Source: Planctomycetota bacterium
Lineage (GTDB): Bacteria; Planctomycetota; PLA2; JAEUHO01
Assembly: GCA_029259775.1 (NCBI GenBank)
Contig: JAJDEN010000015.1
Span: 248,001-312,000 of the forward strand
DNA length: 64,000 nucleotides
Direction: 5' to 3'
Shown here: positions 7,030 through 20,789 of the stretch, piece by piece
Numbering within the stretch: position 1 is the first letter of the stretch
Layout: each line of letters opens with the position of its first letter
Notes under the pieces: generated by a model
What the model was told of the DNA's origin: nothing
What the model saw: only the letters and a program-made list of their open reading frames with translations
Database searches by the model: none
Position numbers and translations under genes: made by a program

Positions 7030-9594
7030 ATGGTGCCCCGGAGTCCCCTGGCCGTGTCGCGCGTCATCCCGAGCACTCGCCGCAGGATCGCCCTGGGCCG
7101 CAGTCCGTTCCGGGCCGTGTGCGCAGCGATCGGTCTGCTGTGGGCCTGTCTCCTGGCGGGTTGCCAGGTGGGTGTGCTCGCGGCCGAGAGCCTTCCCGCC
7201 ATGGCAGCCGGCGCCGACGCGGAGGCCGGGCTCTATGCCGGCGACCCACGCTGGGCTGCGCTTACGGCCGCGTGGCCCCAGCGGGCCGGCGCAGCGTTCG
7301 AGCGCCTCGAGGTCGTGACCGGGCTGACCTTCGAGGACGGCATGGCTCCGCGCCTGCTGTTGCGTCCGTTTGGTGATGAGCGCGTGCCGTTCGAGGTCCG
7401 CATGGAGATCGTCGACGGCCGTCGTCGTGCGGTCATCCACGTGAACGCCGAGCCGCAGCTCGCCGGCGTTCGGGACATCGATCGTGTGCTGTTGCGCGCC
7501 CTCTGCACCGCCGCCTTCCAGGATGCCGCCCGGCGCCACGGGGCCGTCACGCCGTGGATGGAGCGCATGGCTGCGACGGCCGCCGCCGGCGATCTCGACG
7601 AGCGCCTGACGGCGCTGCACCGGCGGTTGGTGAACGGCGCGACCGATGCGGCGACCGTAGCCGCCGACAAGCCTGGTGCGGCCGAAGCCACCGGCGTGGC
7701 CGCCCTCGTGCTGCTCGCGGAGCGCGGTCAGCCCGACGACATCCGGCGCATGCTCGGCTTCGTCGCGGACGGCGACGCGCCTGGCACCGTTCTCGGACGG
7801 CTGGTGGGGGAGCCCGACGGGCGCTGGGAGCGGCCGGCGCAGAAGGCTCTGCAGATCCGGCTCGGAAGCTACGACCCCGAGCCCTGGCGCTTGCTCGAGC
7901 AGGCGGACGAGGCGGCGCACGAGACAGGACGCCTCGGCTTGGAGACCCTGTTCGCCGACGCCGTGCCGCGTGAGATCGCCGAGGAGGTCAGCGTGCTCCG
8001 CGCACGGGCCGTCGCGGACGAGGGCGACTACGCCCAGGCGCGCACGCTCCTCGCCGGGATGGCCGACGATGCGCCGTCGCGGCTTCGTGATCCGGCCGCT
8101 GCGCTTGCGCTGCGCATCCGCGTCGAGCTGCACGCCGGCGGCAATGCGGATCTCGCACGGCGTCTCGCGCGCGAACTCGAGCGGGACTTCCCGCGGAGCA
8201 GCGCGCGCCGCGACCTCGCCAAGCAGCACCCGCTGCTCGGCATGGAGGAAGACCCGCAAGCGTGGATCGCCACACTCAGGCTCCGTATCGAGCAGGATGG
8301 CGCCGGGGACCTCGACCTGAAGACCATCAGCCGGTACGCGCGCATGTTGCTGCTGGATCACCGCGCTGGTGCCGCCGAGCAGTTCCTCTCGACCTTGGGC
8401 CCGCGGGGCGAGGCGCCAGAGCTCGAGCGCTTGCGGGAGGCGGTGCGGGACGCGCAGGCGGATCCCAGCGAGGCGGCGCTCTCGCGCAACGCCCAGCGCG
8501 TCGATGCGTGGAACGCGAAGCCGGGCAAGGCCACGGCCGAGGCCGTGCGGGACGGCGGCGAAGCCTCCCGCGGGGCGCTGCTGAGCTTCATCGCCCGCGG
8601 CGACGCGGCGCGGCGCGGCGGCGCGGTGCACCTGCTGGTCGACGCGGTGGGGGAGGCGGCCGCTGTCGCAGGCGTGCGCCGTCTATGGAGTCTCGATACA
8701 CGGCGCATCGACGACGACCTGCGGGCCCTTGCTGCCGCGGTCCCCTACGAGCCGCTGCGCGCGGCGCGCACGCCCGACGCCATGGACCCGGAGACCATCG
8801 CGGCCGTCGACGCTGCCTGGGGCCGTCTCACCCTCGGCCTCTCCCCTGACTGGCTCGAGGGACACCCGGGCTACCTGCAAGCGTTGCGGCACGACGACTA
8901 CGCCGTGCGCCGGGACGCACTCACCCAGATCTCGACGGAAGACGTCAAGGGGGTCACCCCCGCGCTCGTGGCCCACGGCCTGCGGGACCGCGCCGCCCTC
9001 ATGCGCCGCGAGGCCGTGAGCCTGGCAGGCGCGGCGGACTTCCGCGCGCTGGCACGGCGTGGCCTGGAGGACCGGGCGTGGATGGTCCGCCAGGAAGCGG
9101 TGCGTGTCGTGGCGCGGCTGGAAGGACGCGGCGCGGTCGACACCCTGCGGCGCCTGTTGCGCACGGACGCCTCGCGCGAGGTGCGGGCGGCGGCGGCGCA
9201 CGGCCTCGTGAGCACGGCGCCGACGGACGACCGGGTGCTCGAGGCCTTGCTCCTGACCCAGGTCGGTGAGGAGGCGCGCCTCCGGGATGCCATCGCGGCC
9301 CGTCTGTCGGAGCAGGAACCCAAGCCCGTCGTGCGGGCGGTCGCGCGCGGGTGGCGGCGCGCGCTCGAGCGTGACACGCCCCACCGCGGCTACCTCTTCC
9401 GCACCGCGTTGCTCTACCACCGCCTCACGAAGGAGGACCTGGGCTTCTACCCGGGCGCCACGAAGGACGACTTGCGCAAGATGCTGGGCCGCATGGAGGC
9501 GTGGATCGCACGGACGCCCGACGCCGTGGCGCTCGCTCCGGAGCGCGCCGTGGGAGGAGGCGCGCCACGCCGTCCGACGGGACGCGAGCGATGA
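7030..9594 (+). CDS. Large lipoprotein with degenerate peptidase-like N-terminus and HEAT repeats
   Basis: 854 residues. A long basic leader and hydrophobic helix end in the lipobox LLAGC (Cys about 45), predicting lipidation and membrane anchoring. The first 180 residues resemble the gluzincin-like lipoproteins of this phylum (a beta-rich start, then LLRALCTAAF and TPWMERMAA) but the HExxH zinc motif is absent, so any peptidase ancestry is inferred and the domain would be inactive. A helical TPR-like middle (about 190-470) follows, and HEAT repeats with VRRDALTQIS and VRQEAVRVVARLEGRGAV occupy about 610-760. The gene sits inside the thiamine/dapB run and overlaps thiL by ATGA. Function unknown. 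Confidence 0.8.
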   Translation: MVPRSPLAVSRVIPSTRRRIALGRSPFRAVCAAIGLLWACLLAGCQVGVLAAESLPAMAAGADAEAGLYAGDPRWAALTAAWPQRAGAAFERLEVVTGLTFEDGMAPRLLLRPFGDERVPFEVRMEIVDGRRRAVIHVNAEPQLAGVRDIDRVLLRALCTAAFQDAARRHGAVTPWMERMAATAAAGDLDERLTALHRRLVNGATDAATVAADKPGAAEATGVAALVLLAERGQPDDIRRMLGFVADGDAPGTVLGRLVGEPDGRWERPAQKALQIRLGSYDPEPWRLLEQADEAAHETGRLGLETLFADAVPREIAEEVSVLRARAVADEGDYAQARTLLAGMADDAPSRLRDPAAALALRIRVELHAGGNADLARRLARELERDFPRSSARRDLAKQHPLLGMEEDPQAWIATLRLRIEQDGAGDLDLKTISRYARMLLLDHRAGAAEQFLSTLGPRGEAPELERLREAVRDAQADPSEAALSRNAQRVDAWNAKPGKATAEAVRDGGEASRGALLSFIARGDAARRGGAVHLLVDAVGEAAAVAGVRRLWSLDTRRIDDDLRALAAAVPYEPLRAARTPDAMDPETIAAVDAAWGRLTLGLSPDWLEGHPGYLQALRHDDYAVRRDALTQISTEDVKGVTPALVAHGLRDRAALMRREAVSLAGAADFRALARRGLEDRAWMVRQEAVRVVARLEGRGAVDTLRRLLRTDASREVRAAAAHGLVSTAPTDDRVLEALLLTQVGEEARLRDAIAARLSEQEPKPVVRAVARGWRRALERDTPHRGYLFRTALLYHRLTKEDLGFYPGATKDDLRKMLGRMEAWIARTPDAVALAPERAVGGGAPRRPTGRER

Positions 9595-10538
9595 GCGACG
9601 AACGTACGGAGGAGGGGGGACTCGTCGGCGAAGACGCCTGGCTCGGCCGGGCGCTGCGCGCGTTTCCCGTCGGACCGGAGACCGTGCTGGGTCTGGGGCA
9701 CGACGCGGCGGCCGTGCGCGCGGGCGACGACGGCGTGCTGGTCGTTGCCAAGGACGTACTCGTCGACGGCGTGCACTTTCGACTCGAGGACTGCGGCCCG
9801 TCCCTCGCCGCGCGCAAGGCGCTGGCCGTCAACCTCTCCGACCTCGCCGCGGCCGCGGCCATGCCCGTCGGCTTCCTCGTCGGGGCGGTGCTGCCCCGGC
9901 CGGCGGAGCGCCAGCTCTTCGACGACCTGATGGAAGGCTTCGCCGACGCGGCCGCGGAGTTCGGTTGCACCTGCGTCGGCGGTGACACCAACAGCGCCGA
10001 GGGACCGCTCGTGCTCTCCGTGACGGTGTTGGGTCGACCCGGCCCTGCCGGCGTCCTTTCCCGCTCCGGGGGCAGTGTCGGTGACCTTCTGAGCGTCACG
10101 GGACCGCTCGGCGGCTCGGGGCGTGGACGGCACCTCACGTTCACGCCGCGCATCGCGGAGGCGCAGGTGTTGGCGCGGCTCGGGATCCCTCACGCGATGA
10201 TGGACCTCAGCGACGGCCTGAGTCGGGATCTTCCGCGGCTCTGTCGCGCCTCCGGTGTCGGCGCCCTCCTGGCGGCCGAGAGACTGCCCCTGCATGAGGA
10301 CACGCAGGCCGCCTCGACACGCACGCCGCGCGACCGCGCGCTGCACGACGGCGAGGACTTCGAGCTTCTGGTGGCGCACGCCGCGCTCGACGACGCGCAG
10401 CGCGAGGCTCTGGCGGCTGCTGGTGTCACGCTGTACCCGATCGGGCGGGTGGTGGCTCCCGAGAGCGGCGTCCGCATCCGCATCGACGGGGAGGCGCTTC
10501 CGCTGGAGGTCGGTGGATTCGATCACCTCGAGGGCTGA
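9591..10538 (+). CDS. thiL: Thiamine-monophosphate kinase
   Basis: 315 residues, standard length for ThiL, which phosphorylates thiamine monophosphate to the coenzyme thiamine diphosphate. Family motifs in order: GHDAA (36-40, normally GDDAA; here the first Asp is His), KDVLVDGVHF (54-63), RKALAVNLSDLAA (75-87), GGDTN (130-134), DLSDG (205-209) and HDGEDFELL (252-260). The Asp-to-His change touches the Mg-ATP site but the neighbouring Asp remains. ATG 9591 overlaps the HEAT lipoprotein stop by four bases, so the kinase is co-translated with a protein of no obvious metabolic role. An 18-bp tandem duplication covers its stop codon. Confidence 0.93.
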   Translation: MSDERTEEGGLVGEDAWLGRALRAFPVGPETVLGLGHDAAAVRAGDDGVLVVAKDVLVDGVHFRLEDCGPSLAARKALAVNLSDLAAAAAMPVGFLVGAVLPRPAERQLFDDLMEGFADAAAEFGCTCVGGDTNSAEGPLVLSVTVLGRPGPAGVLSRSGGSVGDLLSVTGPLGGSGRGRHLTFTPRIAEAQVLARLGIPHAMMDLSDGLSRDLPRLCRASGVGALLAAERLPLHEDTQAASTRTPRDRALHDGEDFELLVAHAALDDAQREALAAAGVTLYPIGRVVAPESGVRIRIDGEALPLEVGGFDHLEG

Positions 10539-10602: not shown

Positions 10603-11187
10603 GTGACGAAGCTTGGCCTGACGATCGCGGACACCGACGCCATGCTCGCCCTGGGCGGGCGTGTCGCGGACGTGCTGCGTGCCGCCCGCTGCGAAGAACT
10701 CGTGATCGAGCTGCGCGGCGACCTCGGCGCGGGCAAGACCGTGTTCGTCCGAGGGCTGGCCCGACGTCTGGGCGTGCCCACCACGATGCCGGTCGTGAGC
10801 CCGACGTTCACCATCGCCCGCAGCTATGCCGCCGACTGCGGCGCGCTGCGCGAACTGCACCACGTCGACGCGTACCGCCTACGCGGCGTCGAGGATCTCG
10901 ATGCGGCAGGATTCGAGGAGATGTGCGGGACCGGGCGCCTGACGTGCGTCGAATGGGGGGAGAACGTCACCGAGGCCCTCCCGGAGGACCGCGTGCGCAT
11001 CAGCCTGACCCCTGTCCTGCCCACGGAGCTCGTGCCGGGGGAAGCACCGGAGTGTCCGCGTGACGTGCGGTTCGAAGCGCTGGGGCCGCGGGCGGCGGAG
11101 CTCCTGGACGCGCTCGCACGGAACGAGCGCACCACGGGACAGGGCACCACGGGACAGGGCACCACGAGCGAAGGCGCCACGGCATGA
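10603..11187 (+). CDS. tsaE: tRNA threonylcarbamoyladenosine ATPase subunit TsaE
   Basis: 194 residues. TsaE is the ATPase that works with TsaB and TsaD to make t6A37 in ANN-decoding tRNAs. The Walker A motif GDLGAGKT (39-46), VVSPTFTIARSY, the HHVDAYRL strand and the EWGENV box appear in the family order. Start is GTG 10603, preceded at six bases by a -10-like hexamer. The protein ends in a low-complexity tail TTGQGTTGQGTTSEGATA created by a 15-bp tandem repeat, so the C-terminus is longer than usual (family about 150-160 residues). The stop overlaps the next start by ATGA. Confidence 0.93.
   Translation: MTKLGLTIADTDAMLALGGRVADVLRAARCEELVIELRGDLGAGKTVFVRGLARRLGVPTTMPVVSPTFTIARSYAADCGALRELHHVDAYRLRGVEDLDAAGFEEMCGTGRLTCVEWGENVTEALPEDRVRISLTPVLPTELVPGEAPECPRDVRFEALGPRAAELLDALARNERTTGQGTTGQGTTSEGATA
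11131..11175 (+). repeat. 15-bp tandem repeat encoding the TsaE tail
   Basis: Two exact copies of ACCACGGGACAGGGC (11131-11145, 11146-11160) and a third degenerate copy (11161-11175) encode TTGQG-TTGQG-TTSEG immediately before the stop codon. Confidence 0.85.
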
Positions 11188-14100
11188 GGCGCGCCGGTGT
11201 CGCGAAGATCCGGGCTGCCGCTTGCGGGGCCGTCGCATGCCTGATCGCCGTTCTCTGTTGCGTGCCTGCGGCGGAGGCCGAGGCGCCGGAGGCGCGCCGC
11301 ATCCAGGTGTTCGGGCCGGATGGACGTCCTCTGGAAGGAGCGCGGCTGCTCCCGGTCGCGAAACGCAGGGAGGGTCGGGCGATCTTCGACCCGTTGTTCG
11401 ATGCCATCACGACATCGGATGCCAAGGGGCGCATCGCGGACTGGGACCCGGCACGGGCCGGCACGCTCGGACTCGTCGTGTGGATGCCGGGTACCGCGGC
11501 AGTTCTCGTGCCGGCGCGCGGCACGGGCATCTCGTTGCGCCTGATGCCCGCGAAGCCGACGCGGGGCCTGCTGCGCCGCGGCCCGTCCACGCCTGCCGCC
11601 GGGGTGACCTTGCTCGCCATCCCCCGGACAGCGACGGCCGATCTGCTCCACCGCACGAAAACCGGGACGGCAGGTGAGTACACGCTGCCGGGGCTGCACG
11701 CAGGAAGCTGGGACGTGTTCTTGGAGCACAAGGGCGGACGTCTACAGCGCATCGCTCGCGTCGACGCCGGTGCACGGGCGACGGATGCCGAGCTGCAGTC
11801 CGCGACCTCGGTTCGCGGCCGCTTGCTTGACGTGGATGGCGGCCGCCGCTCGGCCGTTGTGGGCGTGCGGCTGCGCTTTCGCCGCGCCGATCGAACCGCG
11901 CCGGGGTTCGACGCGCTTCAGCGTGCCGAGATGCTCCAAGCCGTCGAGACGGACGAGGACGGCGTGTTCGTCGCGGCAGGTCTCGCGGCCGGTGTCTACG
12001 ACGTCGAGCTGCTCGACCCGGCCTGGGCCTTCGAGGGCCGCGCCCCGCGCGTCCAGGTCGAGTTTCGTCGCGCTCGGCAGATCGAGACGTGGTTCGCGCG
12101 CAAGCGCCAGCTCGTGTCCGGCTCCGTCGTCGATATCGATGACCGTCCCCTGTCCGGCATGGATGTGCGCCTTCTCGTGGACCCGACCGAGCCCTGGCCG
12201 GACGGCGCGACCGCCGCCGTGACGGTCTCGGTCCGGACTGACGCGTCGGGGCGCTTCCGGATCCCGCAGGTCGCGCCGGGGAGCGGCTACCGCCTGATCG
12301 TGACGGGCAGCGGGTACTCGCCGTGGGTCTCGAATCCGTTCGACGTCGACCGGGGCCGCGAGACGAAGCTCGACCCCGTCGTGCTCAAGCAGGGCTGGCG
12401 CGTGCTCCTGCGGGTGCGTGACGTGGATGGCGACCCGGTGGCGGGCGCTCGGGTGACGGCCGTGTCGGCGCGGCGCCCGACCACCGCCAAGGACAAGGTC
12501 TGGGCGCACCTCGGGCGCAGCGGCAGCACGGACGCCACGGGCCGCCTCGAGTTGATCGACCTACCTGGCGACGACGTGCTCGTGGAGGTGGTGGCTGCGG
12601 GTTTCGAGGGTGGGCACACGATCGTGGACTACCCACGTGTCTCGGACATGCGCAAGGCGGATGTGACGCTGCATCCCGCCGCGCGTCTCGAGGGCAAGGT
12701 CGTTCCCGCGGATGGGGGCCCGAAGGGGCCCTTCGTGGTCCGCGCGCGGCGGCGCGACGGCGAGGCCGTCGTGGAGACGTCCACGAACGAGCGCGGTGCG
12801 TTCGTCTTCACCCATCTGGCGGACACCGCGACCGACATCACGGTCCGTCTCGCGTCGGACCCGAAGGGACACCCGCTGACCACGGTCGAGAACGTGGTGC
12901 CGGGCGTCGAAGAACACCTCGAGATCCTGCTGCCGGTGCTGCGCGCCGTGCGCGGGACGGTCGATGCCATGGATGTGGACGGCACGCCGGGCGAGGTCGT
13001 GGTCGAGACCAAGCTCTACGACCCGGCGACCGAGCGCTACGTCTGGCGCGCGGCGGCTCGGGCCGCGATCGAGCAAGAGGGCACGCAGGGCCGGTTCAGC
13101 ATCACGGGCCTGCCCCCCGGCCTCTATGTCGTGCGGGCCGTGCAGGGAGCTCTGGATTCGGGGACCACCTCCGTCTTGCTCGACGAGCAGGACGTGGGCG
13201 GCGTAACCCTGCGCATCCCCTCGGGCGCGCGCATCGTCGGCACCGTCCTCGACGCGGAGAGCAAGCCCGTCCTGGGCGCACGCATCACGTTGACGCGCTG
13301 GCACGGCGACGACCCTTCCGAAGTCCGTGCGCGGGACGCACTACGCTTCGTTTCCGATGAGCGAGGGGACTTCCTGTTCGACGACATCGCACCGGGCGTG
13401 TGGCGTGTCGAGGCGCATGATGAGGACCGGGCGCCGGCGGTCGAGTTCGTGCGCGTGCGGGACGGCGAGGTCCGTGTGACGCGCGATCTGCAGCTCACGG
13501 CCGGCGGCGTGCTGAGCGGCACCGTCGAGGACGCGGACGGCCGACCGCTGGACGCGGTGACGGTCCGTGTGCGCCGCTTCGATGGCGACGAGGCCGAGCG
13601 AACCGTGCGTACCGACGCCAAGGGCATCTTCCGCGCGCGCAACCTCCGCCCCGGCACCTACCACCTGCGCGTGGTGGCCGCGACCGTCTCCGGCGGGCCC
13701 TGGATCGAGGCCGTCGCGGAGGTCGAGGCCGGCAGCACGACGACCGTGCGCTTCACCGCGTCGGAAGACGGCGCGATCGAGGGCACCCTGCGTCGCCGCG
13801 GCCGCGGCGTGGCCGGGGCCGTCGTGGACCTGGTGCACGTACCGGAAGGTGGGGGCGCCGTGCGGCGCTACCGCACCAGCACGGGCGCGGACGGCTCCTT
13901 CCTCGTGGAGCAACTGGAGGCGGGGCCCTACACGATCCAGATCCAGAGCGGCGCGTGGCGCTCGGCCCAGGAAGTGATCCTCGAGGCCGGAGATCACATC
14001 GTGCTCGACCTGGAGGCGTACGAAGCGCGCTTGCGCGGCACCGTCGTGACGCGGGCGGGGGACCCCGTGCCAGGCGCGTTCGTGCGGGCGCGTCCGATCA

Positions 14101-14867
14101 CCGAGGGCGACGTCGAGGACGCGGGCTTCTTCGCCGAAGGTCGTACCGATCCCCGCGGCGCCTTCGTCTTGCGCGGCCTGCCGGTGGGGGTGTACACGCT
14201 CACCGTGTCCGCGCCGGGCCACCCGCCGGGACTGCTCGCGCGCGCCGAGGCCGACCTGCCCGGGGCGGACTTCGACGTCGCGGTCGTGCTGGGCCGTGGT
14301 GGGGACATCAACCTGCGCGTCGTGGACGAGAACGACCGTGGCGTCACCGGCGCGCTGGTCTGGCTCGAGGACGCTCAGGGCGCCGCGCTGAACCGGGAGG
14401 CCTACGTGACGGGCGCCGCCGGGCGCCTGCGCATCGAGGGCGTGCCGCCGGGCGACATCCGCGTGCGCGTGCGCGCACGAGGCCTCGGCCGCCCGGCGTT
14501 GACGAAGGTGCGCGTGCACGAGGGCCGGCCGGTGGACGTGCGCGTCGAGGTCGAACCGGCTGGGGCCATCCAGCTGATCGTCACCGGCGAGGGCAGCGAT
14601 CCCCTGGCGAGGACGCGCATCGACATCGTGCGTGAGTCCTCCGGGGACGTGATCGCGAGCCGGCGGCCCCTGAGTCCGATCCGGTTGCCGGCACCGTGGG
14701 GCTACGTGCCCCGGACGGGCGTCGTGACGATCCCCGAGCTTTCGACCGGCGACTACACGGCCGTCATCAGCGCCGGTCGGAGCTATGCCGTCGCCAAGAT
14801 CCCGATCCGCGTGGAGAAGGGCGAGACGACCATCGTCCGCGTCACGCTGGCGCCCGCCGGGCGCTGA
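11184..14867 (+). CDS. Secreted giant protein of carboxypeptidase-regulatory-like beta-sandwich repeats
   Basis: 1227 residues. A signal peptide (about 1-33, ending AAEAEA) precedes roughly ten tandem Ig-like modules of the carboxypeptidase D regulatory-like type. Each has a G-x-V-x-D-x-x-G-x-P-(V/L) opening (for example GTVLDAESKPVLGARITL, GTVEDADGRPLDAVTVRV) and a GxFxxxxLxPGxYxVxV close (FSITGLPPGLYVVRA, FVLRGLPVGVYTLTV). These are usually adhesion, stalk or scaffold modules at the cell surface; no enzyme domain or LPXTG anchor is visible. It overlaps tsaE by four bases and is followed by an ECF sigma factor, which could regulate it or be regulated with it. Molecular function is unknown. 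Confidence 0.85.
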   Translation: MRRAGVAKIRAAACGAVACLIAVLCCVPAAEAEAPEARRIQVFGPDGRPLEGARLLPVAKRREGRAIFDPLFDAITTSDAKGRIADWDPARAGTLGLVVWMPGTAAVLVPARGTGISLRLMPAKPTRGLLRRGPSTPAAGVTLLAIPRTATADLLHRTKTGTAGEYTLPGLHAGSWDVFLEHKGGRLQRIARVDAGARATDAELQSATSVRGRLLDVDGGRRSAVVGVRLRFRRADRTAPGFDALQRAEMLQAVETDEDGVFVAAGLAAGVYDVELLDPAWAFEGRAPRVQVEFRRARQIETWFARKRQLVSGSVVDIDDRPLSGMDVRLLVDPTEPWPDGATAAVTVSVRTDASGRFRIPQVAPGSGYRLIVTGSGYSPWVSNPFDVDRGRETKLDPVVLKQGWRVLLRVRDVDGDPVAGARVTAVSARRPTTAKDKVWAHLGRSGSTDATGRLELIDLPGDDVLVEVVAAGFEGGHTIVDYPRVSDMRKADVTLHPAARLEGKVVPADGGPKGPFVVRARRRDGEAVVETSTNERGAFVFTHLADTATDITVRLASDPKGHPLTTVENVVPGVEEHLEILLPVLRAVRGTVDAMDVDGTPGEVVVETKLYDPATERYVWRAAARAAIEQEGTQGRFSITGLPPGLYVVRAVQGALDSGTTSVLLDEQDVGGVTLRIPSGARIVGTVLDAESKPVLGARITLTRWHGDDPSEVRARDALRFVSDERGDFLFDDIAPGVWRVEAHDEDRAPAVEFVRVRDGEVRVTRDLQLTAGGVLSGTVEDADGRPLDAVTVRVRRFDGDEAERTVRTDAKGIFRARNLRPGTYHLRVVAATVSGGPWIEAVAEVEAGSTTTVRFTASEDGAIEGTLRRRGRGVAGAVVDLVHVPEGGGAVRRYRTSTGADGSFLVEQLEAGPYTIQIQSGAWRSAQEVILEAGDHIVLDLEAYEARLRGTVVTRAGDPVPGAFVRARPITEGDVEDAGFFAEGRTDPRGAFVLRGLPVGVYTLTVSAPGHPPGLLARAEADLPGADFDVAVVLGRGGDINLRVVDENDRGVTGALVWLEDAQGAALNREAYVTGAAGRLRIEGVPPGDIRVRVRARGLGRPALTKVRVHEGRPVDVRVEVEPAGAIQLIVTGEGSDPLARTRIDIVRESSGDVIASRRPLSPIRLPAPWGYVPRTGVVTIPELSTGDYTAVISAGRSYAVAKIPIRVEKGETTIVRVTLAPAGR

Positions 14868-14991: not shown

Positions 14992-15573
14992 GTGGCCGAT
15001 CGAGACACCGAACTCATGCTGCGCGTTGCAGCGGGCGACGAAGGGGCCTTCGAGCCGCTCGTCCGCAGCGTGCTTCCGCGCCTCATCGGCTATTTTCGCC
15101 GTCTGGGGGCCGACGCCAGCATGGCGGAGGACTGCGCCCAGGACGCGCTCCTGAAGGTCTATCGGGCCCGGGCCAAGTACACGGCGCGCGCGCGCTTCAC
15201 CACGTACCTCTTCCACATCGCCCGCAACCACTGGATCGATGTGTACCGGCACCGCCGGGCCGGGCCGGGGATGGTGTCGGCCGACGCCTTCGGCGGGGAC
15301 GAGGACGGCCGCAAGCCCGAGTTCGAGGGGCCCCCGGCGGAACCCTCGGCCGACGCGGACCATGCCGAGCTGCTGGCCGCCCTGGAGCGGGCCGTGGGCA
15401 CGCTGAACACCGAACATCACGAGGTCTTCGTCCTGGCTCGCGTGGAGAACCTGCGCTACCAGGAGATCGGCGAGATCCTGGCCATCCCGGTCGGGACGGT
15501 CAAGTCCCGGATGCATGCGGCCTGGCGCCACATTCGAGCCGCACTTTCCCGGGAAGGCATCGAACCGCCGTAG
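14992..15573 (+). CDS. ECF-type RNA polymerase sigma factor
   Basis: 193 residues from GTG 14992, the usual ECF length. Region 2 (about 15-90) has the core-binding and -10-reading pattern DCAQDALLKVYRA and TYLFHIARNHWIDVYRHRR; after an acidic proline-rich linker (91-125), region 4 (about 128-185) has LNTEHHEVFVLARVENLRY and the helix-turn-helix QEIGEILAIPVGTVKSRMH. It should direct RNA polymerase to a specialised promoter set. The next gene, 82 bases downstream, encodes a membrane protein with an anti-sigma-like N-terminus, the standard arrangement for a sigma factor held inactive at the membrane. The frame continues open upstream, but translation there is not family-like. Confidence 0.92.
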   Translation: MADRDTELMLRVAAGDEGAFEPLVRSVLPRLIGYFRRLGADASMAEDCAQDALLKVYRARAKYTARARFTTYLFHIARNHWIDVYRHRRAGPGMVSADAFGGDEDGRKPEFEGPPAEPSADADHAELLAALERAVGTLNTEHHEVFVLARVENLRYQEIGEILAIPVGTVKSRMHAAWRHIRAALSREGIEPP

Positions 15574-15655
15574 CCGCTCCCCGTTGCAGTCCTCAGGCCC
15601 CCATTGCTTGGGCCCGACCCACCTACCAGCCGCCTACCTTGGAAGTCCAACGCCC

Positions 15656-17134
15656 GTGACCCGCCGACCCGACCATCCCGACGAGCTCCTGCTGGACAGC
15701 CTGCAGGGCGAGCTGGACGCCGACGCCCAGGCTGCCCTCGAGGCGCGTCTGGCCGTGGAGCCGGAGCTGGCCGCGGAGCGCGATGCGCTGGCGCGCCTGC
15801 TGGCCTTCGAGCGCGAGGTGTTCGAGCCCGCCGCCCAGACCGCGTCCGCCGAGGCGGACGCAGGGCGCATGGCCGCCTGGGTCCGCAGCACCGTGCAAGC
15901 CGACGAGACGGCGGAGACCCGCGTCCGCTTCGCGCCGGCCAAGCAGCGCAGCTGGGCGCGCATCCTCGCGTGGTCCGTCGGTCTGCATGTGGTCCTCCTG
16001 GGTGTGCTCGCCTTCGTGAGCGGCGGCGACGACGCAGGCCGCACCAACGGGCTGGAGGCACGCATCGTCCTGGACGCGGAGGACGAGGGCCTCGACTTCG
16101 GTGACATCGTGGACTACCGAGGCGCCGCGCTGGCCATGCAGTGGGAGCGTGCCGTCACCTCGGGGGCCATCGACGACATGGCCGACAAGTTCGTGCTCGA
16201 GGAGCAGGAGACCGACGACCTGGCCGACAGCCTGGCCGGCCTCGAGGACGACCAGCCTGCCGCATGGCATGGCTTGAGCCACCCGGTGGGCGTCGTCGTT
16301 TCGATGACGCGTCGCAAGCGTCCGGAGCTGCGCCGACGCAGGCTGGACCTGCTCGGATTCAATGCGCAAGGCACCCTGAAGGCCGTCGACAAGGGCCTGG
16401 GCTTCCTCGCGCGGCTGCAGGCAGCCGACGGCTCCTACCGCCGTGAAGGGGCCGCAACGGCTTCGATTCGCGAGACCTCCGTGGTGCTGCTGGCCTTCCT
16501 CGGCAACGGTCACACGTCACGCGGCCGCAAGGACCGCGACGGCGTCGTCCGCAAGGGTGTGGACTGGCTGCGAGGCCAGCTCTTCGAGAAGGAAGCCCGC
16601 AAGGGCCGTTCGCTTCTCAAGGCCGGCCTGGGGGCCGATACCGACCTCGGACCGGCCACCGTGGCCCTCTGCGAGGACTACATGCTGAGCTACGGCGAGC
16701 TGCCGCCCCAGGCCGCTGCGCGTCGGGCCAACGAGATCGCCGCCCTCGCCGCGGCATCCCGCGAGCAGGTCATGGCCGCCGCCGGCGAAGACCGCACGTG
16801 GCGCGTGTGGGCGCTGGACGCCGCATCCCGTGCCGGCATCGTGACCTCGAGCAGCATGGACGACCGCGTCTTCCGTTCGTGGGTCCAGACGGCGGCCGCC
16901 ACCTCGCTCGAGCCCGGTGGGACCGCATCGAGCATGGCCGCGCTGAGCGCCGGCACGGCGCTGCTGTTCGCCGAGCGGGGTGCGGCGAAGCCGCGCTTCC
17001 TCGACTGGAGCAAGGCGAACGCGACCAGCCTGGTCGGGCGCCTCACGAAGATCGGCCGCGCCAAGACGGGTGATGCCGTCAGCGAGACGGCCATGATCCT
17101 GCTCGCACTTCAGGTCGCCTACAGGACGTACTGA
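15656..17134 (+). CDS. Membrane anti-sigma-like protein fused to a squalene-cyclase-like toroid
   Basis: 492 residues from GTG 15656. Residues 8-55 (DELLLDSLQGELDADAQAAL and following) resemble the cytoplasmic sigma-binding helices of anti-sigma factors, without the Zn-binding HxxxCxxC. One membrane helix (about 103-122, ILAWSVGLHVVLLGVLAF) separates this from an extracytoplasmic part: an acidic spacer, then from about 240 a prenyltransferase/squalene-oxidase-type repeat region with LGFLARLQAADGSY and TSVVLLAFLGNGHT, the pattern of alpha/alpha toroids. No DxDD cyclase acid motif is visible, so binding rather than catalysis is likely. Gene order predicts that it controls the adjacent ECF sigma factor. 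A TACCTT -10-like hexamer lies at 15635. Confidence 0.8.
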   Translation: MTRRPDHPDELLLDSLQGELDADAQAALEARLAVEPELAAERDALARLLAFEREVFEPAAQTASAEADAGRMAAWVRSTVQADETAETRVRFAPAKQRSWARILAWSVGLHVVLLGVLAFVSGGDDAGRTNGLEARIVLDAEDEGLDFGDIVDYRGAALAMQWERAVTSGAIDDMADKFVLEEQETDDLADSLAGLEDDQPAAWHGLSHPVGVVVSMTRRKRPELRRRRLDLLGFNAQGTLKAVDKGLGFLARLQAADGSYRREGAATASIRETSVVLLAFLGNGHTSRGRKDRDGVVRKGVDWLRGQLFEKEARKGRSLLKAGLGADTDLGPATVALCEDYMLSYGELPPQAAARRANEIAALAAASREQVMAAAGEDRTWRVWALDAASRAGIVTSSSMDDRVFRSWVQTAAATSLEPGGTASSMAALSAGTALLFAERGAAKPRFLDWSKANATSLVGRLTKIGRAKTGDAVSETAMILLALQVAYRTY

Positions 17135-17543
17135 GCTGCGGGCGGTCGGCGGCCCACGATGTCACCGCGAGAGGTCGCGTCGTTACCGAACCGGGACCGA
17201 ACTGCAAACCGCTGCCGGGAGTGCAGTTGCCGATCGGAGCAGCCGATGTCTCTGATTGGGGACGTGAAGCGCACACTTCGCGCGACTTCGTTGCTGATCT
17301 GCCGCGAATGCTGCGTTCTCAAGATGTGATGAATCCAGACTTTGGCGTCTGTTTCTCGCGCCTGATCTGGTCGATACGTCCCTGCGACGTCTACGGCCGA
17401 TCTACGGCATGAGGCTTGCAGATAGATGCCGAGTCGATCGAGCGGGAACGCCACGCGTTCCTGCCAACGGCTGCGGTCGCCCTTCGGCGTCGCCATCTGG
17501 CGACGTCCCCCGGCGACCGGGTCGAGAATCCGAGGAGCGAGAT
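17135..17543 (+). other. 409-base structured leader/intergenic region
   Basis: No convincing gene. The first 280 bases look less GC-rich than the surrounding genes. Two perfect hairpins lie near the 3' end: GGAACGC/GCGTTCC (17445-17461, 3-base loop) and CGTCGCCA/TGGCGACG (17488-17505). They sit just upstream of the ribosome site of the 71-residue protein at 17544, so this may be a long regulated 5' leader or contain a small RNA. No known riboswitch fold was recognised. Confidence 0.4.
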
Positions 17544-17759
17544 ATGGACATCCTCTTCAAGTGCCTCCAGGGCGGCGCGCGCTACTACAGCGTCCGTCTC
17601 CACGGTCAGGAACTTTTCGTCGGGTCGCCGGAGGAGTGCGAGCGCTACATCAGCCTCCACAACGCCAAGGTGATGCAGCAGAAGGCCGACGAGAGTCGCC
17701 CGCAGCGCAGCAAGCCGGTGTCGATCCGCACCTACCGCCAGATCCGCACGACGGCGTAG
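17544..17759 (+). CDS. Small uncharacterised protein
   Basis: 71 residues, not assignable to a family from sequence alone. ATG 17544 has an AGGAG site 8 bases upstream. The first 45 residues look like a compact beta-rich domain (MDILFKCLQGGARYYSV, then LFVGSPEECERYISLHNAKV), the rest is a basic tail (QRSKPVSIRTYRQIRTTA). No signal peptide or membrane segment, so cytoplasmic. Codon choice is consistent with a real gene. The last bases, including the stop codon, are tandemly duplicated. The long structured upstream region suggests post-transcriptional control. Confidence 0.65.
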   Translation: MDILFKCLQGGARYYSVRLHGQELFVGSPEECERYISLHNAKVMQQKADESRPQRSKPVSIRTYRQIRTTA

Positions 17760-17849: not shown

Positions 17850-19103
17850 ATGACGCGTCGCCTGCACCCTGGGTACGTGGTACGCCTCCCGTTCCCTGCC
17901 TGCACGCACCTCGTGGTGCTGTTCTGCTGCGCATCCAGCGCGGGGGCTGCCGGGCTCGACGCCACCACCGCCCTGGAAGCAGGCCCGTTCTCACGAGCCG
18001 ACGCCGTCGTCGCCGTGCAGGTGCTCGACGTGACAGACATCCGCGCACCCGGCGGGGCCCTCGGGCGGCAGATCGTCCGGGCGCGCGTCCTGCGCGCGAT
18101 GAAGGGCACCGCCGCCGCCCGCAGCGAGATCACCGTCCAGGTGCGAGGGCAGCGCCCGACGCTCGACCCCGCGCGACCGTCCGTTCCCTACTTCCGCAAG
18201 GGGCTGCACAACCGCTACGTGCTCTTCCTCACGCGGACCACCGGACGCTTCGTCTACCAACTGCAGACGCTCTACGACGCCCAGGACCGTACGGGTGCCG
18301 AAAAGATCAAGGCGGTCGACGCGGTGGCCCTCTGGGCACGGGAGACCGACCCCAAGGTGAAGGCGGCCAAGACCCTCAAGGGGCTGCTCACGATGATCAA
18401 GTCGCGGGGCCGGTGGGCACCCGGTCACGCGGCGCGCGAGCTGGCCTACCTCGCGCAGCTGCATCCGGAGATCTTCGACCGGCGCACGCTCGGCCAGCTC
18501 ACCCGGCTGGGCGCGCTGGGCGGCACGTCGGACATGCGGTTCTGGATCCGGCGCGTGGCGCAGCTCGTCAGCCAAAGCGCTTCGCCGTCGGGCAAGGGCA
18601 GCGGCAAGGGCAAGGCGGACGGCGATCCCTGGCGCGTCGCCTTCACGGGCGCGCCCGGGCCGGAGGACCGCAAGTTGCTTCTCAGCCGTCTCCTGCGGAC
18701 GGGTGGCGAGACCTTCGACAAGCAGGCCTGGTGGGCGTGGAACCGGATCGAGCCGAGCCTCCGAGGCTGGTTCGTCGAGGCTCTCGTCCTCGCCAAGGCG
18801 CGCAAGCGTCTCCCGCGTCTGCGGGGCCTCTACGGCGGCGAGGAGGACGGAGAGGTCCGAGCTGCCATCGTGCGCGCCGTGGGCCTGCTGGGGTCCAAGG
18901 ACGACGTGGCGTGGCTCACCGAGCGCTTGGCAGGTGCGACCGTCCGCCGGCAGGCGCTGATCGCCCTCGCGCGCATCCGTACCACCCAAGCACTGGCCAG
19001 CTTGCGCGCCGCGCGGCAGGACCGACCGGCTGACGAGGTGCGCTGGATCGACCATCTCCTGAGCAAGGTCTTCGTCGAGAGCGAGCGCCGCGCAGGTCGC
19101 TAG
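17850..19103 (+). CDS. Secreted HEAT-like repeat protein
   Basis: 417 residues. A signal peptide (about 1-35) leads into a beta-rich domain (about 45-140: ADAVVAVQVLDVTDIRAPGG, then VLRAMKGTA and YVLFLTRTTGRFVYQL) that looks like a small OB- or NTR-like fold, although this is only an impression. A helical region follows and ends with HEAT repeats (about 325-410: VRAAIVRAVGLLGSKDDVAWL, VRRQALIALARIRTTQAL). No catalytic residues recognised; probably a periplasmic binding protein. A TATGGC hexamer ends six bases before the ATG, similar to the leaderless pattern but weaker. Confidence 0.72.
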   Translation: MTRRLHPGYVVRLPFPACTHLVVLFCCASSAGAAGLDATTALEAGPFSRADAVVAVQVLDVTDIRAPGGALGRQIVRARVLRAMKGTAAARSEITVQVRGQRPTLDPARPSVPYFRKGLHNRYVLFLTRTTGRFVYQLQTLYDAQDRTGAEKIKAVDAVALWARETDPKVKAAKTLKGLLTMIKSRGRWAPGHAARELAYLAQLHPEIFDRRTLGQLTRLGALGGTSDMRFWIRRVAQLVSQSASPSGKGSGKGKADGDPWRVAFTGAPGPEDRKLLLSRLLRTGGETFDKQAWWAWNRIEPSLRGWFVEALVLAKARKRLPRLRGLYGGEEDGEVRAAIVRAVGLLGSKDDVAWLTERLAGATVRRQALIALARIRTTQALASLRAARQDRPADEVRWIDHLLSKVFVESERRAGR

Positions 19104-19172
19104 CCACGCGTGATCCCTCTGCGGATCCCCGGGGGCCACGGCTAGGATGTGCGCCCACCGGAGGCACAACGC

Positions 19173-20789
19173 GTGACGCCGCGAGTCCTGTTCGCTCTCA
19201 GTCTGACGGCCCTGCTGCTCGTGCCGGCGCTCCTTCTCGACCCGGCGCCCGCGGCCGGTGAGGACGAACTGCCGCCGCTAGGTGCGGCACCGGCTCCGGA
19301 GGGTCCGGCGCACCCCGTCCAGCAGGCGCCCCTCCGGAAGATGCACGTCCTGAAGCTCAGCCTCCGCAAGGCGGTCCAGATGGGCGTACGCGGCAACCTC
19401 AGCCTGCTCGAGAGCTCCTACAACACGCCGATCGCGTGGCAAGGACGCGTCGCCGCCGACGCGTCGTTCGATCGCCTGCTCACAGCCGGCTTCACGGTCG
19501 CCCACAACGAGACGCCCTCGACGAACATGTTCCTCGGCAGCGGCGTGACGGTGGACAACAACATCAACGCGCAGGTCGGCCTGACGCGCAGGCTGCGCAC
19601 GGGCGGCTCGATCTCCTTGCTCTACCGCGCCGACCGCGTCAGCACGAACAACCCGTTCGCGACCGTCAACCCGGGCTACACCGGCAGCCTCAGCGGCGAA
19701 ATCTCCTATCCGCTGCTGCGCGGGGCGGGTGACACCGCCCTGGCCGACATCCGCCGCGCCCAGAACAACGTCGCCGCCGCGCGCGCCACGCACCGCGGTG
19801 AGGTCGAGGCCGTCCTCTTGCAGATCGCCGAGGCCTACTGGGAGCTGGTCTACGCCGACGCCAACCTCGCCGCGCGCCGCAAGGCCGAGGAGGTCGCGCG
19901 CGAGTTGCTCGACGACGCCACCGCGCGCATGGACGCCGAGGTGGGCACGCCGCTCGACGTGGCAGAGGCCCAAGCCGGCGTGGAGCGCCGCGTCAGCGAG
20001 GTGCTGGGCGCCGAGAACCTGCGCGAGACGCTCGAAGATCGTCTGCTCAGCCTGATCGTTCCGTTCGGCCCGAGCGTCCGCCATGCCATCCGGATCGAGC
20101 CTACCGACAGCACGAGCGCTGCGCCGGACACCCTGCCGAAACGCAGCGAAGAGCAGCGCTACGTGAAGCTCGCGCTCCAGGGCCGACCCGAGCTGCAAGC
20201 CAGCAAGGCGGCGATCGCGGTGCTGGGCATCGACACGCTCGTTGCGCGCGATGCAATCAAGCCACAGCTCGACGTCATCGGACGCGTGGGCACGGACGGT
20301 CTGGACGCCGGCTTGGGCGGCTCCATCGAGGACGTGATCACGGGGCGTGCGGCTTCCGCCGCTGTCGGCCTCGAGTTTTCGATGTTCATCGGCCGCAGGG
20401 CGGCACGTGCGCAGTGGCTCACCGCCGCGTGGCGCCGCCGGCAGGCCCTGCTCAAGTACAGGGAACTCCAGAACCAGATCGTCGTCCAGGTCCGCGCTGC
20501 GTTGCGCGACCTCAGCACCGCACGGGGTCAGCTGACCGCCGGCCGCGCGGAGGTGGCCGCCGCCGACGAGGGCCTCCAGGGCGAACGCCTGAAGCTCGAC
20601 CAGGGCAAGTCCACCCCGTTCCGCGTCCTCCAGAAGGAGGACGATCGCACGGCGGCGCGCACGCGCGCGGCGCGCGCCTCCGCGGATCTCAGCATCGCCG
20701 AGGCGCGCCTTGCCCGGGCCGTAGGGACCATGGCCGCCAGCATGGGTGTCGATGCGAGCCACTGGAAGCCGTGTCCGGATTGTCGCTGA
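19173..20789 (+). CDS. TolC-family outer-membrane channel protein
   Basis: 538 residues. GTG 19173 is chosen because GGAGG lies 8 bases upstream; an earlier in-frame GTG at 19149 would touch the TAGGAT -10-like hexamer. A signal peptide (about 1-30) is followed by the duplicated OEP domain: LSLRKAVQMGVRGNLSLLES near the start, long heptad-rich helices (RGEVEAVLLQIAEAYWELVY, ANLAARRKAEEVARELLDDA) and the second repeat (YRELQNQIVVQVRAALRDLS, then LKLDQGKSTPFRVLQKEDD). TolC homologues form the outer-membrane duct of efflux pumps or type I secretion. No inner-membrane partner is adjacent, so its pump is encoded elsewhere. It ends CPDC, an unusual Cys pair. Confidence 0.87.
   Translation: MTPRVLFALSLTALLLVPALLLDPAPAAGEDELPPLGAAPAPEGPAHPVQQAPLRKMHVLKLSLRKAVQMGVRGNLSLLESSYNTPIAWQGRVAADASFDRLLTAGFTVAHNETPSTNMFLGSGVTVDNNINAQVGLTRRLRTGGSISLLYRADRVSTNNPFATVNPGYTGSLSGEISYPLLRGAGDTALADIRRAQNNVAAARATHRGEVEAVLLQIAEAYWELVYADANLAARRKAEEVARELLDDATARMDAEVGTPLDVAEAQAGVERRVSEVLGAENLRETLEDRLLSLIVPFGPSVRHAIRIEPTDSTSAAPDTLPKRSEEQRYVKLALQGRPELQASKAAIAVLGIDTLVARDAIKPQLDVIGRVGTDGLDAGLGGSIEDVITGRAASAAVGLEFSMFIGRRAARAQWLTAAWRRRQALLKYRELQNQIVVQVRAALRDLSTARGQLTAGRAEVAAADEGLQGERLKLDQGKSTPFRVLQKEDDRTAARTRAARASADLSIAEARLARAVGTMAASMGVDASHWKPCPDCR

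Follow-up and report, generated by a model that had tools for sequence, protein, structure and literature searches.

A planctomycete ECF sigma factor and its predicted anti-sigma partner, a membrane protein with a TonB-type helix and a squalene-cyclase-type toroid

The gene directly downstream of an ECF sigma factor in a Planctomycetota genome encodes a membrane protein which, judging from its sequence and its relatives, is an anti-sigma factor, and its most interesting feature is a membrane helix of the TonB type. We propose, with about an even chance of being right, that the two genes encode an ECF sigma factor and an anti-sigma factor built on a TonB-like toroid protein, the helix of which would be worked by a proton motor of the ExbB/ExbD type. 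The window, that is, the whole stretch of 64,000 nucleotides analysed, belongs to contig C7 of a Planctomycetota MAG (G000). Eight genes follow each other in the order ThiL, TsaE, 1227-residue protein, ECF sigma factor, toroid protein, 71-residue protein, HEAT-repeat protein and TolC-like protein. Residues of the toroid protein are numbered as in P0002, one lower than in the full protein. The features, in window coordinates, are:

9570-10538: ThiL.
10603-11187: TsaE.
11184-14867, plus strand: 1227-residue protein with 11 CarboxypepD_reg repeats (Pfam), upstream neighbour of the sigma gene, kept in most of the family.
14992-15573, plus strand: ECF sigma factor of 193 residues with sigma2 and sigma4 domains (Pfam and NCBIfam, PDB relatives, sigma tree).
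15656-17134, plus strand: predicted membrane anti-sigma factor with toroid, 492 residues, GTG start (homologues 27-58% identical, conserved synteny).
15659-15922, plus strand: predicted class I anti-sigma domain, P0002 residues 1-88, zinc ligands lost (hhalign, PDB profile matches, helix pattern).
15947-16021, plus strand: predicted single transmembrane helix, P0002 residues 97-121, N-in (hydropathy, charge asymmetry, helix 97-121 in the model).
15974-16021, plus strand: TonB/TolA SHLS motif, S106-VGL-H110-VVLLGV-L117-AFV-S121 (sequence, published motif definition, invariance, enrichment).
16052-16087, plus strand: possible D-box-like strand LEARIVLDAEDE after the helix, resembling LSFRISAEAEPD of the genome's own TonB.
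16331-17131, plus strand: predicted squalene-cyclase-type alpha/alpha toroid, P0002 residues 225-491, without DxDD and with one QxxxGxY repeat.
17544-17759, plus strand: small conserved protein of 71 residues without a Pfam family, flanking the syntenic block.
17850-19103, plus strand: HEAT-repeat protein, syntenic flank.
19149-20789: TolC-like outer membrane protein.

The 1227-residue gene belongs to the upstream gene string, its start overlapping TsaE by 4 bp. The toroid gene begins 83 bp after the sigma gene, and these two genes both have a GTG start codon. An earlier note, made from the letters alone, had given the coordinates of the sigma and toroid genes exactly, and the 1227-residue gene that it placed directly upstream is real, with its repeats recognised by Pfam. 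Downstream of the toroid gene, the long intergenic region 17135-17543 contains a block, CAGTTGCC-N12-CGATGTC, that is conserved in five family genomes and might act as promoter or operator for the genes of the 71-residue (MDILFKCLQGG...YRQIRTTA), HEAT-repeat and TolC-like proteins; the first of these is kept at the same place in family relatives. We rejected CAGTTRCC-N12-CGATGTC as a regulon motif, its occurrence in the 5.1 Mb genome being single.

The sigma factor, already called an ECF factor in the earlier note, matches Sigma70_r2 (E 2.7e-16) and Sigma70_r4_2 (E 5.5e-12) in Pfam; sigma2 and sigma4 are present and sigma3 is absent, the composition that places it among ECF factors, and its PDB relatives are SigH and SigW. 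As a query in its own genome it returned 27 matches at E <= 0.001, the next best merely 38% identical, and in 3 of 5 distant genomes, with 10-50 sigma matches each, the best match was a toroid-linked sigma. In a tree of 83 factors, 23 toroid-linked sigmas fall into one clade of 25 (SH-aLRT 94), the boundary of which is approximate because the background sigmas come mostly from six genomes. The two other members, L185 and L188, are paired with an anti-sigma factor that has no toroid, and toroid linkage reappears on an unrelated sigma in L057 and L068. The linkage label changes 3 times on this tree versus 21.7 times with shuffled labels, and, apart from one second origin, the toroid-linked sigmas essentially make up a single clade.

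Taken alone, P0002 had no match in Pfam, a single-sequence search of the PDB returned nothing, and the sole NCBIfam match was to 'putative anti-sigmaE' (PRK13920, E 0.005). A profile of the N-terminal domains from the zinc-less family and the order aligned with the zinc anti-sigma domains of distant relatives (hhalign, Prob 95.6, E 1.3e-8), and the joint N-terminal profile, built from 18 family domains and compared with all PDB chains, found 3hug_B (2.9e-6), RsiW (6.4e-5) and ChrR (0.002). The first of these, a membrane protein of M. tuberculosis, we take to be the anti-sigma factor RslA. The HxxxCxxC zinc motif (Hx3Cx2C) is absent from P0002; several distant toroid relatives with an ECF gene directly 5' keep it at the aligned place, and zf-HC2 of Pfam scores above cut-off in L053, L057, L058, L127 and L140 and just below it in L050. 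The motif is optional in class I anti-sigma domains (ASDIs), about 56% of which carry it and nearly half of which do not, and in this class three helices lie on sigma4 and a fourth on sigma2 (PMC7406223). Four N-terminal helices are predicted in P0002 (9-16, 21-33, 35-55 and 58-88) by a model of low confidence (pLDDT 41), the pattern to be expected of a class I domain. Because of the profile matches to zinc-bearing relatives and to RslA, RsiW and ChrR, we regard this N-terminus as almost certainly a class I anti-sigma domain that lost its zinc site; its homology to known ASDIs and the adjacent cognate ECF gene both place it there, and the same matches bear out the anti-sigma-like N-terminus of the earlier note, as the missing HxxxCxxC does its lack of a zinc motif. 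The toroid protein would accordingly be the inhibitor of the sigma factor encoded beside it.

Ten family relatives have the same gene order, with synteny kept at 27-58% protein identity. The block TsaE, 1227-residue protein, sigma, toroid, small protein, HEAT and TolC-like is largely kept across the family, and the 1227-residue scaffold gene adjoins sigma in most of it, though not in G010 (L083) or G034 (L074), which makes it a weak candidate for the possible target that the earlier note saw in it. In G034, which belongs to another family, the order is ThiL, TsaE, sigma and a zinc anti-sigma factor with a toroid. Sigma-linked anti-sigma toroids also occur in three relatives from the order (G013, G014 and G015) and in about ten further sampled families of Planctomycetota. 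Because the two genes stay together with synteny at such identities, and given the phylum-wide pairing and the sigma tree, we reject a chance neighbourhood. The earlier note had proposed to look at domain order and sigma neighbour among homologues, and had held that homologues without the neighbour would count against it; both are kept. Several loci depart from the common arrangement. A gene for a tetratricopeptide-like protein of 1027 residues is inserted between sigma and toroid anti-sigma in L127 (2540-5620, plus strand), and in family f47 another periplasmic part replaces the toroid and SxxxH is gone (L185, 487-1440, and L188, 428-1612, both minus strand). A match in Afipia (L006) looks spurious, there being no matching long open frame.

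The toroid protein has a single membrane helix. The positive-inside rule puts the N-terminus of the protein in the cytoplasm (charge asymmetry 5/2 ahead of the helix and 2/9 behind it), and the flanks of the helix, basic before and acidic after, agree with a TonB-like topology. The motif with which TonB and TolA dock onto proton-driven motors is defined as Ser-x3-His-x6-Leu-x3-Ser (PMC12215075), and the helix matches this SHLS pattern in full and with exact spacing (S106-H110-L117-S121). Both S106 and H110 are among 25 positions invariant in nine homologues (27-57% identity), and the later Leu and Ser vary among homologues, as in TonB itself. Eighteen of the 22 toroid anti-sigmas linked to a sigma gene have SxxxH, three others have Ala or Thr in place of Ser, and one lacks the His; among 33 membrane-helix ORFs that follow ECF sigmas without a toroid partner, the count is 0 (p 5e-11, Fisher p-values overstating the significance here because related proteins are not independent samples). 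The raw background among helices of other ORFs was 17/261, with toroid proteins making up 16 of the 17; once these are removed, it is about 1/245. The motif travels with the toroid and not with the sigma factor: L185 and L188, from the same sigma clade, lost both, and L057 and L068 have both on an unrelated sigma. Most membrane-anchored 'squalene cyclase repeat' proteins that we found carry this motor-docking motif. When helix and linker together were aligned with the genome's TonB, 5 of 2000 shuffles aligned as well; for the linker strand alone, the likeness to the TonB linker was not significant by shuffling. A TonB_C or TolA C-terminal domain gave no Pfam match in P0002, which has the toroid instead and is not filed as TonB. 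In two further toroid proteins, L112 (6003-8342, minus strand) and L115 (5779-8100, minus strand), several cytoplasmic 'F..AL..EF..RA....SLP' units precede a TxxxH helix.

The C-terminal region is, by profile homology, a toroid of the squalene-cyclase type. Residues 225-491 alone had no Pfam match. The toroid family profile aligned with distant toroids (Prob 99.8, E 5.6e-28), and the joint toroid profile found squalene-hopene cyclase in the PDB (E 7.5e-25), followed by other cyclases, thioester-containing proteins and alpha-2-macroglobulin. It is these profiles and not a structure model that identify the alpha/alpha toroid repeats: models built from three input sequences reached pLDDT 41 for the full length and 40 for the toroid alone, too poor for a pocket, and Foldseek had no significant match for the toroid model (best E 3.0). 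A search for the DxDD acid in the toroid found none, and we reject a catalytic squalene or terpene cyclase on this ground. The single helix and the prenyltransferase/squalene-oxidase-type toroid without DxDD of the earlier note both stand, the latter by the match to squalene-hopene cyclase; the SHLS motif had been overlooked. The earlier note's suggestion of lipid or isoprenoid sensing finds no support, with no DxDD, no nameable ligand, models too poor for a pocket, and the same toroid present in ExbB/ExbD operons and in signal-peptide proteins.

Those operons suggest a link to a motor. Nine toroid loci adjoin exbB and exbD (L099, L109, L118, L125, L132, L143, L144, L149 and L150), with ExbB and ExbD confirmed by Pfam in the sampled loci, and in several of the nine the exbD stop almost abuts the toroid gene. 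The linked proteins have 1100-1700 residues and a last membrane helix with SxxxH or AxxxH, and the two that were scanned combine a PD40 propeller with the toroid. From their gene content, the exbB-exbD loci with a PD40-toroid protein look like an undescribed Ton/Tol-type system. In L015 (682-3222, minus strand), an ExbD-like region is fused to the toroid (local ExbD profile E 5e-16 by hmmsearch; Pfam ExbD 0.006). In the window genome we found a single ExbB gene, three ExbD-like genes and a single TonB (helix SIALH), whose gene adjoins what reads as a TonB-dependent receptor. Neither exbB/exbD (contig C64) nor tonB (C19) is adjacent to the sigma/toroid pair; on C64 (L073), ExbB and the three ExbD-like proteins stand beside secretin-like and TPR proteins, without TonB. 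ExbD was present in 19 of 19 genomes checked, a co-occurrence that the motor model requires but that does not tell the readings apart. At the position of Trp38, the residue of E. coli ExbB that touches the motif, the planctomycete ExbBs that we read have Leu or Ala, and the neighbouring Ser is kept. L062 has lost the His, and its genome still has ExbD; the idea that His loss tracks ExbD loss was tested with G111 and rejected. The distance of the motor genes from the pair, the replaced Trp, the linker strand that does not stand out as TonB-like and the missing His of L062 all speak against motor coupling.

In the mechanism that we propose, a cytoplasmic anti-sigma domain would be joined to a TonB-like toroid protein made up of SHLS helix, periplasmic linker and toroid. 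At rest, the cytoplasmic domain would clamp the sigma factor, the toroid would contact an envelope partner or ligand, and the helix would dock on an ExbB/ExbD-type proton motor, coupling the anti-sigma factor to it. Motor engagement or tension, or its loss, would then change the helix and release sigma, either directly or because intramembrane proteases gain access to the anti-sigma factor. We infer the inhibition of sigma, the docking on ExbB/ExbD, the dependence on force or protons, the release route and the partner of the toroid. A broader form of the proposal, which we hold to be plausible at somewhat less than even chances, is that anti-sigma factors of this kind make up a class spread across the phylum and are themselves clients of ExbB/ExbD-type motors, transcription being gated by motor engagement or pmf through the TonB-type helix and the catalytically dead cyclase toroid serving as a periplasmic hook; the same toroid-helix module would then serve as client of the motor where it is encoded with exbB-exbD and as sensor where it is paired with a sigma factor.

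It is also possible, if rather doubtful, that the protein is a conventional sensor, in which an envelope protein or a ligand (a lipid, an isoprenoid, a polymer or a peptide) binds to the toroid, and a conformational change or regulated intramembrane proteolysis then sets sigma free; SxxxH would be a helix-packing relic of TonB-like ancestors, with no motor involved. The PDB relatives of the toroid, among them cyclases, prenyltransferases, alpha-2-macroglobulin and complement thioester domains, have hydrophobic molecules or proteins as their partners. Known anti-sigma factors let go of their sigma through proteolysis, a change of conformation or partner switching (PMC7406223), and the distance of exbB/exbD from the window pair and the missing His of L062 fit as well. 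However, if a Ser-x3-His pair buried in a membrane helix served packing alone, some drift should be seen among homologues of 27-57% identity, and none of the nine aligned homologues departs from it; in addition, it vanishes where the toroid is replaced and is common to the toroids of exbB-exbD operons. We consider it unlikely that the protein is a mechanical, Tol-like envelope monitor, with or without a motor, whose toroid is tethered to an outer-envelope partner such as the upstream repeat scaffold and reports loss or strain. The sister toroid proteins linked to ExbBD do hold PD40 beta-propellers, as TolB does, and most of the family keeps both the 1227-residue repeat protein and, downstream, the TolC-like protein. 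In neither G010 nor G034, however, does the scaffold gene adjoin sigma, and the partner is hypothetical. That an ECF sigma gene merely lies beside an unrelated membrane toroid protein, with a chance likeness at the N-terminus, would agree with the missing Pfam match of P0002 alone and the missing zinc motif; it is very improbable in view of the profile matches to zinc anti-sigma domains and solved anti-sigma factors and of a pair kept across the phylum.

The protein resembles the class I membrane anti-sigma factors RsiW, RseA, ChrR and RslA in its homologous N-terminal domain, the ECF gene directly upstream, the one membrane helix and an extracytoplasmic sensor part, and differs from them in that the sensor is a squalene-cyclase-type toroid and the helix has the SHLS motif. 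With TonB and TolA it shares the N-in/C-out topology, the SHLS helix with exact spacing, an acidic linker and possibly a D-box-like strand, whereas an anti-sigma domain replaces the short tail, the toroid replaces the TonB_C or TolA C-terminal domain, and the motor genes are non-adjacent. The planctomycete PD40-toroid proteins linked to ExbB-ExbD have a homologous toroid and an S/AxxxH membrane helix, but they are longer, with extra membrane helices, a PD40 propeller, no anti-sigma domain and linked motor genes. The homology of the repeats extends to squalene-hopene cyclase and terpene cyclases; unlike these enzymes, P0002 has a toroid of one domain only (about 265 residues) without the DxDD acid, anchored in the membrane and joined to an anti-sigma domain. 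FecR-type cell-surface signalling likewise uses an ECF/anti-sigma pair; it needs the Ton complex, in which TonB energises the outer-membrane receptor (PMC9249621). Here, in contrast, the TonB-type helix sits on the anti-sigma factor itself, and P0002 had no Pfam match to a FecR periplasmic domain. We found no paper that joins anti-sigma factors with squalene-cyclase toroids, which the two main ECF surveys (planctomycetes and ECF family) and their supplements may describe, and none that links planctomycete toroids with ExbD.

If our proposal is true, it would unite in one system the ECF sigma switch and the Ton/Tol proton motor, which are otherwise known only as neighbours, with an anti-sigma factor as the client of the motor where FecR-type signalling has an outer-membrane receptor. 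It would also give a purpose to many uncharacterised 'squalene cyclase repeat' proteins of the phylum. Planctomycetes have many ECF factors, the signals of which are largely without assignment, and they would gain a route from the energy state of the envelope, or from envelope contact, to transcription.
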